From assembly GCA_018970725.1 (NCBI GenBank), contig JAGWVU010000021.1, forward strand, positions 1-64,000: DNA of 64,000 nucleotides. Direction: 5' to 3'. Positions 51,998 through 56,383 of the stretch are shown piece by piece. Under the pieces are notes generated by a model. That model saw only the letters and a list, made by a program, of their open reading frames with translations, ran no database searches and was not told the origin of the DNA. The translations under genes and the position numbers were made by a program. The DNA comes from Verrucomicrobiota bacterium (GTDB lineage Bacteria; Verrucomicrobiota; Verrucomicrobiia; Verrucomicrobiales; DEV007). How positions within the stretch are numbered: the first letter of the stretch is position 1; each line of letters starts with the position of its first letter.

Positions 51998-52618
51998 TCA
52001 AGCCCGGCGTCCGGTGCGCATCAGGCCGACCATGACGCCTTGGATGATCAATTCGGCGGCCGGGATGAGGTCCGGGTAGCGGGGATTTTCGGCCCGGAGA
52101 AAGGTGCGCCGATTCTCTTCGATGTAACGTTTGAGCGTGGTTTCTCCGTCGATCAGGGCGGCGACGATATCCTTGTTGCGCGGCTCTCGTGATTCAAGGA
52201 TGACCAAGTCCCCGTCCACGATGTGCGCGTCAATCATGGAATCCCCCCGCACCTTGAGCGCGAACGTCTTGGCGGAGGGCGAGAGTCCCAGATTGCCCGG
52301 ATCCACGGTGACGGTGCCCTCTTTGAGCGAGGCCGCTTGTTCAGGGGGACCGGCGGGGATGTTGCCAAAGACCGGGATGGTGAGCAGGTCGGAGAGCCTC
52401 ATGCCGAGTTCCTCCGGAAAGATTACCGCTCGAGCCTTGCCAGCGAGCCGCTGGATGACGCCCTTCCTTTCCAGCGCCCGCAGGTGACTGACGGCTGCGG
52501 TCTGGCTCAAAAAGCCAAAGTGCTTCTGGATTTCCCGCGTCGAAGGCATGATTCCTGTTTCCCGCGAGTAGTCTCTCAGGAAGTTGTAGAGTTCTTGTTG
52601 TCGATCTGTAAGATTCAT
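51998..52618 (-). CDS. lexA: LexA repressor
   Basis: The 206-residue protein has an N-terminal winged helix (LTDRQQELYNFLRDYSRETG, HFGFLSQTAAVSHLRALERK) and a C-terminal S24 peptidase domain. The scissile Ala-Gly lies in NIPAGPP. The Ser is in VRGDSMIDAH and the Lys in DGETTLKRY. It represses SOS genes until RecA-stimulated self-cleavage. The ATG at 52618 gives MNLTDRQQ. A LexA-like box overlaps the first base of the start codon, so it is probably autoregulated. Confidence 0.95.
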   Translation of the reverse strand: MNLTDRQQELYNFLRDYSRETGIMPSTREIQKHFGFLSQTAAVSHLRALERKGVIQRLAGKARAVIFPEELGMRLSDLLTIPVFGNIPAGPPEQAASLKEGTVTVDPGNLGLSPSAKTFALKVRGDSMIDAHIVDGDLVILESREPRNKDIVAALIDGETTLKRYIEENRRTFLRAENPRYPDLIPAAELIIQGVMVGLMRTGRRA

Positions 52619-52631
52619 ATTCCGATGAACA
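52618..52631. promoter_or_regulatory. LexA operator (SOS box)
   Basis: On the lexA strand the sequence TGTTCATCGGAATA fits TGTTC-N4-GAACA with one mismatch. It abuts the lexA start codon and lies 24 bp before the divergent TPR gene. Binding here would block lexA initiation and perhaps the divergent operon. Comparison is to the motif published for Verrucomicrobia, from memory. Confidence 0.7.
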
Positions 52632-52655
52632 CTACTCGCGCGCACCCTTGATGCA

Positions 52656-53594
52656 ATGAGAATTTTCGAAAAATGTGCAGGATGGATTTGGATCCCTTGC
52701 TTTGCCTTTTTCGCGGCTTTGGCAGGGCCTTCCCTAGCATGGTCCGCCGGGGAAATCACGCCGAAGCCGACCTCGAATCCGACGGGGCTGCAGATCGGTG
52801 TCAATCCTCCCGAGGCGGGGGCGTTGCCGCCGGGGACGGAGGCGCTGGCGAAGGAGGGGGCCATGGCCTCCGCCGACATGGAATGGGACAAGGCGAAGGC
52901 GGCCTACTCGCGTTTGCTGGAGCGGGCCCCGGAGAATTCCCTGGCCTTGAGCAACCTCGGGGCCGTGGAATTTCGTCTGGGAAATCTGGATGCCGCCCTG
53001 GACTATCTCGACCGAGCCACCCGGGCGGCTCCGGGCATCGCGCAGAATTGGCTGACGATCGGCCTGATTCATCACAGCCGGGCGCGGCCTTATCTGGCGT
53101 TGAGCGCCTTCGCCCGGGCCTTGGACGCGGATCCCGGTGATCCCCGGGCCCACAATTACATGGGCGTGGTGATCCGCGGGTTGGGGTGGGCGAGCGGGGC
53201 GGAGACGGAATTGCAGCGGGCGATCGCCCTCGATCCTTCTTACGCGGACGCCCATTTTAATCTGGCGGTGATGTATTTGGATCGGTCGCCCCCGCTTCTG
53301 GAGTTGGCCCGCCGGCATTATTACGCGGCGATGGAATTCGGAGCCAAGCCCGATCCGGTGATCGAGCAGAAATTAAATCCCGCCAGAGCGGAGAACGTCC
53401 CGGTGCCTCCGGGAGTGGTTGAGCCGGGAGGTGGCGCGGCGGCGACGATGCCCCCCGCCGTTCCGATGACGGAGCCCGCGTCTCCGGAGGGGGGGGCGCC
53501 CGGAGCGGCGGCTCCTCTTTTGACGCCGGCCGCTCCTTCTTCCTTGCGCGGGAAGGCATCCGGGGCGAAGGCAAACGGCAAACCGAGAAAATGA
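52656..53594 (+). CDS. Exported TPR-repeat protein
   Basis: The 312-residue protein has a signal peptide (WIPCFAFFAALAGPSLAWSA), then four TPR units between residues ~68 and 210 (WDKAKAAYSRLLERAPENSL, GNLDAALDYLDRATRAAPG, YLALSAFARALDADPGDPRA, SGAETELQRAIALDPSYADA), and a Pro/Ala-rich tail with a basic end. It overlaps the D-Ala-D-Ala carboxypeptidase gene by 4 bp, suggesting a cell-wall role. The lexA operator lies just upstream. Confidence 0.85.
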   Translation: MRIFEKCAGWIWIPCFAFFAALAGPSLAWSAGEITPKPTSNPTGLQIGVNPPEAGALPPGTEALAKEGAMASADMEWDKAKAAYSRLLERAPENSLALSNLGAVEFRLGNLDAALDYLDRATRAAPGIAQNWLTIGLIHHSRARPYLALSAFARALDADPGDPRAHNYMGVVIRGLGWASGAETELQRAIALDPSYADAHFNLAVMYLDRSPPLLELARRHYYAAMEFGAKPDPVIEQKLNPARAENVPVPPGVVEPGGGAAATMPPAVPMTEPASPEGGAPGAAAPLLTPAAPSSLRGKASGAKANGKPRK

Positions 53595-54502
53595 TGTTGT
53601 GGTCATCTGTCATCCGGGGGGGGATCGTTTTGGCGGTCTTGAGCGCATTCACGGGTTGTTCTTCTCCCGTGGGGCCAATGGTCGGCGGGGGGCCCTCCGC
53701 GCCGCCGCCGGGAACGGGGGCGGTGGGGTCGGCATCGTTGGGCAAGGCCCCCCAGATCGGTGCCGCAGCGTTCATCGTCATCGATCCACGCAACGGTCAG
53801 GTGTTATTGGAGAAGAACGCCCACGTGCGTCGCGCGGTGGCCTCCACGCAGAAGCTGCTTACGGCGCTGGTGGTTCTTGACTCCGGACGGATGGACGAAA
53901 TGGTGACGGTGGCTTCCTCGGATACCGCGGTGGAACCGGCGAAGATGGGCATCCGGGCCGGGCAACGCTACCGGCGGCGCGACCTCCTGGCGGCGATGAT
54001 GGTGCGGAGTTGCAATGACATCGCCGCCTGTCTGGCGCGGACCACCGCCGGGAGCGAAACGGCTTTCGTGGCCCGGATGAACGCGAAGGCGGCCCAATTG
54101 GGGATGCGCAATTCCCGGTTCGCCACCCCGCACGGGCTCGATGCGCCAGGGCAGTATTCGACCGCTTTTGATCTGGCGATTCTGGCGACGGCGGCCCTGA
54201 ATCACGGCGAGTTGCACCGGATCACCCAGACCCGGGAGATGGTGTTTCCGATGGCGGACGGAAATGACGCCCTGATCGTGAACACCAACCGGGTCTTGCG
54301 GATGTCGCCCTACTGTTCCGGCTTGAAGACTGGTTACACTTCCCAGGCGGGGCGGTGTCTGGTTTCCTCCGGGGAGCGCGGGTTGCGTCGTGCGGTGGTG
54401 GTGGTCCTGGGGAGTCAGATCCCGGATGTCTGGAACGATTCGAGGGATCTCCTGCACTGGGCTCTCGCGGTGCCGCAGGGCCCGGCGGTGGCGTCCCCCT
54501 GA
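53591..54502 (+). CDS. D-alanyl-D-alanine carboxypeptidase (S11)
   Basis: The 303-residue lipoprotein (lipobox in LSAFTGCSS) has the three penicillin-binding motifs: STQK near residue 84, SCN near residue 142, and KTG in GLKTGYTSQAG. S11 enzymes trim the terminal D-Ala from peptidoglycan stem peptides. It overlaps the TPR gene (ATGA), and the bioF-like gene starts 29 bp after it. Confidence 0.93.
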   Translation: MMLWSSVIRGGIVLAVLSAFTGCSSPVGPMVGGGPSAPPPGTGAVGSASLGKAPQIGAAAFIVIDPRNGQVLLEKNAHVRRAVASTQKLLTALVVLDSGRMDEMVTVASSDTAVEPAKMGIRAGQRYRRRDLLAAMMVRSCNDIAACLARTTAGSETAFVARMNAKAAQLGMRNSRFATPHGLDAPGQYSTAFDLAILATAALNHGELHRITQTREMVFPMADGNDALIVNTNRVLRMSPYCSGLKTGYTSQAGRCLVSSGERGLRRAVVVVLGSQIPDVWNDSRDLLHWALAVPQGPAVASP

Positions 54503-54531: not shown

Positions 54532-55701
54532 ATGCGCACCCCTGAAGAAGAATTGGCCGGGATCCGCGCCCGGGGCTTGTGGCGGCAAGTCGGCTCCTTC
54601 GAACCGGTCCCGGGGACGATGCAGTGTCGTTTCAACGGACGGGATTTGGTGCATTGGGCCTCCAATGATTACCTTGGGTTGGCCAACTCCCCGGAATTGC
54701 AGGCCGCATTTCACGAGTCGGTGGCCCGGCTGGGGGCGGGATCGGGCGCTTCCCGCTTGATCGTGGGCACCCGGGCGAGCCATCTTGCCCTCGAAGAGGA
54801 GTTGGCCGAGTTCGAAGGCACCGGGGCGGCCCTGACCTTCAGCAGCGGCTACGTGACCGCGGTGAGCGCGATTCCGGCGATTGTGGGAAAAGGCGATGTC
54901 GTCATCCTGGACAAACTTTGCCATGCCTGCCTCATCGACGGCGCGCGTTTGAGCGGAGCCTTGATGCGGGTCTTTCCCCACAACGATCTGGAGAAACTCC
55001 GTTCCCATCTGCATTGGGCCCGCCGCCAGATCGAGGCCCGGGGCCGGATCCTCATCGTGGCGGAATCCGTTTACAGCATGGATGGGGATTTTGGCGACCT
55101 TGCGGGAATGGCGGCGCTCAAGGAGGAAGCCGGCGCGTTGTTGTTGGTCGATGAGGCGCACGGCGTGGGGCTTTACGGACCGATGGGGCAGGGCAGGGTG
55201 GAGGAACTGGGGCTTGGGGACCGGGTGGACCTGCGGATGGGGACTCTGAGCAAAGCGTTGGGGTTGGCCGGGGGATATCTCTGCGCGAGCCGGTCCTGGA
55301 TCGATCTCCTGATCAACTCGGGACGGGGCTGGATCTATTCCACGGCCCCGCCCGCGGCGCTGACGGAAGCGGCCCGCCATGCTTTGCGGATGCTTCGGGG
55401 AGACGAGGGGGCGCGGCGCCGGGCCCGGCTCTGGGAAAACGTGGCGGCCTTGGATGAGGCGCTCGGGCGGACCGGGATAGATCCCAGTCCCATCCGCCCG
55501 GTCAGGGTCGGCGAGGCGGAGGCGGCGCTCGCGTTGAGCGAGAGTCTGCGCCGTCGAGGTCATCATGTTCCCGCGATTCGTTTTCCCACCGTGCCGAAAG
55601 GAACGGCGAGATTGCGGGTTTCCCTGAGTGCGGATCACCGGAAAGAGGAGATCGGGAGCTTGGCCCGGATTCTCCGGGAGCCGGAGCTTCACGGTGATTG
55701 A
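54532..55701 (+). CDS. bioF: 8-amino-7-oxononanoate synthase-like enzyme
   Basis: The 389-residue PLP enzyme shows the alpha-oxoamine synthase motifs: NDYLGLANSPEL, GAGSGASRLIVGT, ESVYSMDGDFGDL, LLLVDEAHGVGLYG, and the PLP Lys in GTLSKALGLAGGY. BioF condenses pimeloyl-ACP with L-alanine for biotin. No other bio genes are nearby and it lies in a cell-wall operon, so related reactions (for example KBL-like or sphingoid-like condensation) cannot be ruled out. The ATG at 54532 gives MRTPEEELAGIRARGLW. Confidence 0.82.
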   Translation: MRTPEEELAGIRARGLWRQVGSFEPVPGTMQCRFNGRDLVHWASNDYLGLANSPELQAAFHESVARLGAGSGASRLIVGTRASHLALEEELAEFEGTGAALTFSSGYVTAVSAIPAIVGKGDVVILDKLCHACLIDGARLSGALMRVFPHNDLEKLRSHLHWARRQIEARGRILIVAESVYSMDGDFGDLAGMAALKEEAGALLLVDEAHGVGLYGPMGQGRVEELGLGDRVDLRMGTLSKALGLAGGYLCASRSWIDLLINSGRGWIYSTAPPAALTEAARHALRMLRGDEGARRRARLWENVAALDEALGRTGIDPSPIRPVRVGEAEAALALSESLRRRGHHVPAIRFPTVPKGTARLRVSLSADHRKEEIGSLARILREPELHGD

Positions 55702-55741
55702 CGGCGGCGCGATTTGGCGGTGACAATTGGGCAACGTGCGG

Positions 55742-56383
55742 ATGGCAGGAGGCAAGCCAGATTTGGAACCGGCCGCAGCCAGCGGTCCTCATCGGAGGAG
55801 CCGGGGGGGCGTTTTGCTGGTCGTGATGCTCTGGTTGACGGGGCTCTGTCAGGGGTGGAGCTTTGACACGGTGGTGATCGATCCCGGGCACGGCGGGACC
55901 GATCCGGGTTCGGAATGGTTCGGTGTGAAGGAAAAGGATCTGACGCTGGACCTCGGGCTGCGGATGGAGCGGATCCTGCAGGCGCGCGGGATCAAGACGG
56001 TGATGACGCGACGCACTGACGTTTTTGTGGACTTGGGGGAACGGGCTGAAATCGCCAATCGCCACCGGGAGGCGGTCTTCATTTCCCTGCACTTCAATGC
56101 CACCGTGAGCGGGGACATCACCGGGGTGGAAACCTATTACCTCAGCGAAGGCGGGATGCGTTTGGCCGAGGTGGTTCACAGTCATCTCATGAGAAAACTG
56201 AACACCCGGGACCGGGGGGTGAAACGGAACAGCCTCAAGGTCTTGCGCGATACCAAGGGGATGTCGATCCTGATCGAGGGAGGCTTCATCAGCAACCGCT
56301 GGGAGAACCAGCGATGCCGGGCCCCGTGGTATCGTCAGATTCTGGCCGAGGAGATCGTGGCAGGCCTGATCCGCTTCCGATGA
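55742..56383 (+). CDS. N-acetylmuramoyl-L-alanine amidase (Amidase_3)
   Basis: The 213-residue protein has a hydrophobic leader (GVLLVVMLWLTGLCQGWSF) and an Amidase_3 domain with zinc ligands His in IDPGHGGTDPG, Glu in KEKDLTLDL, and His in ISLHFNA. The catalytic Glu is in MSILIEGGFI. It cleaves the amide between muramic acid and the stem peptide. A TTG at 55727 or GTG at 55736 could also start it. It follows the bioF-like gene by 40 bp. Confidence 0.92.
   Translation: MAGGKPDLEPAAASGPHRRSRGGVLLVVMLWLTGLCQGWSFDTVVIDPGHGGTDPGSEWFGVKEKDLTLDLGLRMERILQARGIKTVMTRRTDVFVDLGERAEIANRHREAVFISLHFNATVSGDITGVETYYLSEGGMRLAEVVHSHLMRKLNTRDRGVKRNSLKVLRDTKGMSILIEGGFISNRWENQRCRAPWYRQILAEEIVAGLIRFR

Follow-up and report, generated by a model that had tools for sequence, protein, structure and literature searches.

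Does a LexA operator that touches the start codon of lexA also govern the wall-related genes transcribed in the opposite direction, or are these genes only neighbors of lexA? This question is raised by a 64-kb stretch of DNA from a Verrucomicrobiota bacterium (hereafter, the window), in which lexA (51998..52618, minus strand) encodes a protein of 206 aa that contains the Pfam domains LexA_DNA_bind and Peptidase_S24 and scores above the cut-off of the NCBIfam lexA equivalog. In an alignment of 12 LexA proteins, Ala-Gly, Ser, and Lys are invariant at what we take to be the positions expected of a self-cleaving LexA. The minus strand at 52631..52618 reads TGTTCATCGGAATA, that is, the 14-mer TGTTC-ATCG-GAATA, and the lexA ATG occupies 52618..52616 (minus strand), such that one base is common to both, the last A of the predicted operator being the A of the start codon. 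The original prediction that TGTTC-N4-GAATA lies directly against the lexA ATG is thereby borne out.

Erill et al. are said to have described, in 2016, TGTTC-N4-GAACA as the LexA-binding motif of Verrucomicrobia. The site in the window agrees with this description in motif class, in its association with the lexA promoter and in phylum, but overlaps the start codon and has an imperfect right half-site, GAATA rather than GAACA, which amounts to one mismatch to the consensus and is the same in both congeners. These congeners (G001 and G002) keep both half-sites, while the central four bases differ across the genus (ATCG, ATGG, and GTTG). The site at the lexA start is the sole match to TGTTC-N4-GAACA with at most one mismatch in the 64-kb window. 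In the 4.9-Mb assembly, TGTTC-N4-GAAYA occurs in 3 places, with the other two TGTTC-N4-GAATA places (L001 and L003) both located within open reading frames, and there is no perfect TGTTC-N4-GAACA anywhere in G000 or G002. Genome-wide, we detected 62 sites with at most one mismatch compared to 34 for the reversed control; simple arithmetic from this count yields a probability of about 5 in 10,000 for a chance match in the 37-bp spacer between the two divergent start codons.

To place the site in its evolutionary context, we collected lexA starts from related genomes, 50 of 57 of which contained a LexA match (30 loci and 35 longer stretches were taken), together with those of 80 loci in named genomes, among the matches listed. 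After 32 identical duplicates and 4 unreadable sequences were dropped, the 145 pooled loci yielded 109 distinct lexA starts. Among these listed matches, 90 of the 109 starts carry a site with at most one mismatch (a perfect one in 69), and the remaining 19 have none, so that the earlier call of a LexA operator fits the known Verrucomicrobia class at lexA. In the same listed set, the operator ends 8–19 bases before the ATG in 70 of the 90 loci and 2–4 bases before it in three, and is more than 19 bases away in seven (up to 87 bases, in L110), and the register seen in the window, with the last A of the operator serving as the A of the ATG, is found at 10 of the 109 starts. Thus, the 14-mer appears to be an ordinary lexA operator of Verrucomicrobiota, the site being ordinary in kind and its start-codon register slightly unusual.

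Of the ten start-codon-register loci, three belong to the species of this genus, one is L033, and the other six have perfect palindromes; five of these six are labeled Chthoniobacter or Chthoniobacteraceae (L201, L202, L204, L208, and L217), the sixth (L207) being labeled only Verrucomicrobia. These six share with the window the identical operator/ATG register, and in five of them TANTGT overlaps the left end of the operator; they differ from the window in that their palindromes are perfect, no TPR or S11 gene was found in the 1.2–3 kb of upstream DNA available, and a TTG-form −35 is found in only one. Many members of the family read TGTTC-N4-GAACA-C-TGTTC-NN-ATG, whereas this genus reads TGTTC-N4-GAATATG, without the further CTGTTC half-site that precedes the ATG in those relatives; under the simplest reading, a loss of about nine bases, extra half-site included, would have brought the operator onto the ATG.

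Several lineages depart from this pattern. In L209 and L212, the lexA ATG occupies the center of a palindrome whose half-sites are two bases apart (AGTGTTC-AT-GAACACT and GTGTTC-AT-GAACAC, respectively), not of TGTTC-N4-GAACA, so a different operator spacing is possible in this lineage. Upstream of lexA in L114 (G044) and L113 (G053), TGTTC-N4-GAACA was not found; in L114, a direct repeat (the GAACTAGATCATATGAAC region) adjoins the lexA ATG, and in L113, an inverted repeat, GCATTTGCAC...GAGCAAATGC, does, and the LexA motif of family f3 may be a different one. The seven of the 57 genomes in which no LexA match was obtained are the whole f2 sample (G036, G043, G047, G049, G052, and G055), most of it near complete, and G039 of f5.

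Operators on start codons do not seem to be special to lexA. In three of three congeners (L135, L132, and L136), an operator lies one base from the ATG of the ORF that precedes imuB, which, by position, would be imuA, and in L138 and L130 the predicted ATG of this ORF lies within the operator; the imuB cassette thus appears to have the same design. At recA of G000, nothing was found within two mismatches of the motif, and a scan allowing up to two mismatches detected one site in G001 and two in G002. Because recA of the genus has no good palindrome, the support for a regulon in this genus comes from lexA and the imuB cassette. The one-mismatch scan recovered a site at 5 of the 9 ImuB loci scanned (DinB-type matches lay outside the scan) and at 3 of 20 recA loci, compared to 14 of 20 with two mismatches, and therefore misses true targets. 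As a separate observation, conserved non-canonical half-sites (TGTTCAA, GACG-GCGAAC, and GTTCATGCGATG) are located about 70–100 bp before recA in L073, L074, and L075, and TGGAC-N4-GAACA recurs upstream of recA in other family members.

The operator seems to be embedded in the lexA promoter. A predicted −10 hexamer, TAGTGT (52629..52634, minus strand), overlaps the operator and is present in three of three congeners, with TANTGT at 8 of the 10 loci of the start-codon class; a predicted −35 hexamer, TTGCAT (52651..52656, minus strand), falls on the first base of the start codon of the divergent TPR gene, and TTGCAT or TTGCAC with a 16-bp spacer is found in three of three congeners. A TTG-type −35 is seen at 5 of the 10 start-codon-class loci, and in the 8-base-gap class, 20 of 21 loci have a TTG-hexamer 15–18 bp upstream of a hexamer ending in the TGT of the operator. 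We regard this architecture as secure within the genus but as less secure across the start-codon class. Because the predicted −10 overlaps the operator, and the hexamer ends 10 bases before the ATG, lexA transcription would start about 0–5 bases before the ATG; the very short or absent leader that had been proposed from the position of the operator is thus supported by promoter-like anatomy. According to PMC10783764, some members of the phylum make little use of Shine-Dalgarno sequences. A promoter scan of 52480-52760 returned nothing on either strand; given that it also misses the predicted lexA promoter, we do not count this null against a TPR promoter.

The TPR gene opens with 22 bases (52656-52677) that are identical in the three species, although the proteins share only about 70% identity. 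Of the testable codons, 6 of 6 are synonymously identical over codons 1–8, 12 of 21 over columns 9–60, and 62 of 169 after that. Given the overlap between the −35 and the TPR start codon, the opening bases may serve the lexA promoter, and the A/T-rich gene start past the −35 may, small as the numbers are, be an upstream element of that promoter inside the coding sequence.

As originally noted, an operon diverges from lexA 24 bp past the operator: after this gap (52632..52655), which has the same length in G001 and G002, the TPR ORF starts at 52656. Its four genes, all on the plus strand, encode a protein matching Pfam TPR families, with an N-terminus that by eye resembles a signal peptide (52656..53594); an S11 D-Ala-D-Ala carboxypeptidase-type protein (53591..54502; Pfam Peptidase_S11, 1.1e-60) that carries STQK, SCN, and KTG, which we take to be the motifs of such proteins; a BioF/Kbl-family PLP enzyme (54532..55701, the start being predicted in an ORF that opens at 54355; Pfam Aminotran_1_2); and an N-acetylmuramoyl-L-alanine amidase (Amidase_3; 55727..56383; Pfam, 1.1e-47). 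The earlier description of the sequence holds on every point that we checked, including the TPR-carboxypeptidase-bioF-amidase run of four wall-type genes; for the third of these, the NCBIfam bioF model is the best match at 383 bits, under its curated cut-off of 426 bits.

The wall genes are long-standing neighbors of lexA. From the 50 genomes in which LexA was matched, we compared 36 neighborhoods (the window and 35 fetched stretches): 29 have a TPR gene divergent from lexA, two showed the carboxypeptidase alone, and in five neither gene was found. At the 80 named loci listed, some of which have little upstream DNA and seven of which are on contigs already in the first sample, the TPR gene is found at at least 23 and the carboxypeptidase only at at least nine more. 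The start-to-start spacing of lexA and the TPR gene is 37 bp in three of three species of the genus; in other genera, where the TPR start is ambiguous in many cases, the nearest plausible ATG is mostly about 70–180 bp from lexA. The operator mostly keeps its distance to lexA while the divergent gene varies, which argues against a general link between the SOS response and the wall.

The same issue can be addressed with genomes in which the wall genes are not linked to lexA. Among 22 genomes, the carboxypeptidase adjoins lexA in L158 and L168 and was not found beside lexA in the others (L143 being judged on just the 227 bp upstream of its lexA). A perfect operator at lexA is combined with an operon (S11-BioF or TPR-S11) encoded elsewhere in 12 genomes; the approximately 1.5 kb preceding each of these 12 unlinked operons contains no one-mismatch site, in a test of limited power. 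At 18 unlinked loci (those 12, five S11-only loci, and L261, where lexA has no good site), two two-mismatch sites were detected compared to 2.25 expected from shuffles, that is, no excess. Two of the 12, L264 and L267, combine a start-codon operator at lexA (L204 and L201, respectively) with a TPR-S11 operon elsewhere that has no site. Three members of the order with TPR-S11 apart from lexA (G037, G044, and G053) were left out of this comparison; the motif was not found at their lexA genes, so its absence at their operons says nothing. No second one-mismatch site was found in the 200 bp scanned in TPR-linked neighborhoods, some TPR starts lying beyond that stretch, and a single second site, with two mismatches, is present in L107. 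The wall operon therefore does not look like a standing SOS target. The proposed link from SOS to wall remodeling is not supported as a general one, and we did not adopt, as the main reading, an operator dedicated to switching the wall operon, given that operons apart from lexA have no one-mismatch site. The part of that proposal by which one operator would control both lexA and the wall operon retains a plausible geometry within the genus, with the 24-bp gap and the 37-bp spacing in all three species.

The explanation that we favor, with considerable confidence, is a compact lexA autoregulatory operator of the Verrucomicrobia type, laid over the −10 and the start codon of lexA, with the divergent operon as an old neighbor. 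LexA bound at the operator would block its own promoter; upon DNA damage, LexA would cleave itself and lexA would be transcribed with a leader of about 0–5 bases; and LexA would act on the divergent TPR-carboxypeptidase-BioF-amidase operon, if at all, through crowding. Since that operon has room for a promoter only across the operator or within lexA, some effect is plausible, and we judge the chance that LexA affects the TPR operon in this genus to be about one in three; any such effect would probably be a consequence of crowding, not of an evolved SOS-wall program. Autorepression of lexA through the start-codon operator is well supported by the −35/−10 pair in register with the operator and by the six of ten start-codon-register loci that, among the matches listed, are perfect palindromes in other lineages. 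Counting against this explanation are the imperfect right half-site, the lack of a good palindrome at recA, the presence of the −35 at only half of the ten start-codon-class loci, the empty promoter scan and, among the matches listed, the 7 of 90 sites farther than 19 bases from the ATG and the 19 of 109 siteless lexA starts.

That the 14-mer is a chance near-match not bound by LexA would accord with its imperfect half-site and with the 62 one-mismatch sites in the genome, but the position is conserved at 90 of 109 lexA genes among the matches listed, the half-sites are kept in the genus while the center changes, and there is no second near-match in 64 kb; we consider this reading highly improbable. 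Another possibility is a bidirectional operator, through which LexA would repress both lexA and the TPR-carboxypeptidase-BioF-amidase operon as a selected program, such that damage would induce wall remodeling or a division block. The uniform 37-bp spacing, the divergent TPR gene in 29 of 36 neighborhoods, and the existence elsewhere of LexA-controlled wall or division genes divergent from lexA, as described in PMC6851548 and PMC3989709, speak for it, but the operator position follows lexA, and the 12 unlinked operons have no one-mismatch site and show no excess at two mismatches, albeit in a scan that misses true targets; we regard a program of this kind as unlikely.

The TPR operon could, in turn, be transcribed constitutively from a promoter of its own that precedes the operator and lies within the coding sequence of lexA, in which case LexA would at most slow transcription as a roadblock. 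By eye, the three-species alignment contains no hexamer resembling a −10 that is conserved within the 24 bp, and codons 1–12 of lexA are synonymously identical at 7 of 10 testable codons, compared to 69 of 178 in the rest of the gene, both of which would fit such a promoter. These codons are few, however, the conserved lexA start can also be put down to the combined constraint of protein and operator, and the promoter scan, which also misses the predicted lexA promoter, found none; this arrangement is a real but doubtful possibility. Autoregulation of lexA next to an old neighbor remains the reading that we prefer.

The locus illustrates the dense packing that a lexA promoter can reach, with its −35 on the start codon of the neighbor and its operator on that of lexA itself, and suggests that, among the SOS genes of this phylum, placing the operator on a start codon is a design that recurs. 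A literature search over titles and the beginnings of abstracts returned nothing on point concerning leaderless LexA genes, tandem LexA sites, or a link between LexA and a carboxypeptidase. In Gram-positive bacteria, SOS division inhibitors are encoded divergently from lexA, namely, yneA, chiZ (Rv2719c), divS, and sosA, according to PMC6851548 and PMC3989709. It seems improbable that the present locus is the Verrucomicrobiota counterpart of lexA/yneA and lexA/chiZ, with the 37-bp region containing both the entire lexA promoter and an operator through which lexA and a peptidoglycan-trimming operon are switched together; if it were, damaged cells would alter their wall. The locus lends itself well to the question of whether conserved neighbors of lexA are SOS genes or only neighbors, and the unlinked-copy comparison favors the latter. 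In contrast to yneA, chiZ, divS, and sosA, LexA control of the divergent gene is only putative here, the unlinked copies being without a site, and the divergent products are a TPR protein and a carboxypeptidase rather than a small membrane or LysM protein; what this locus has in common with those systems is a wall-related gene, encoding a protein that by eye appears to be exported, placed divergently from lexA.
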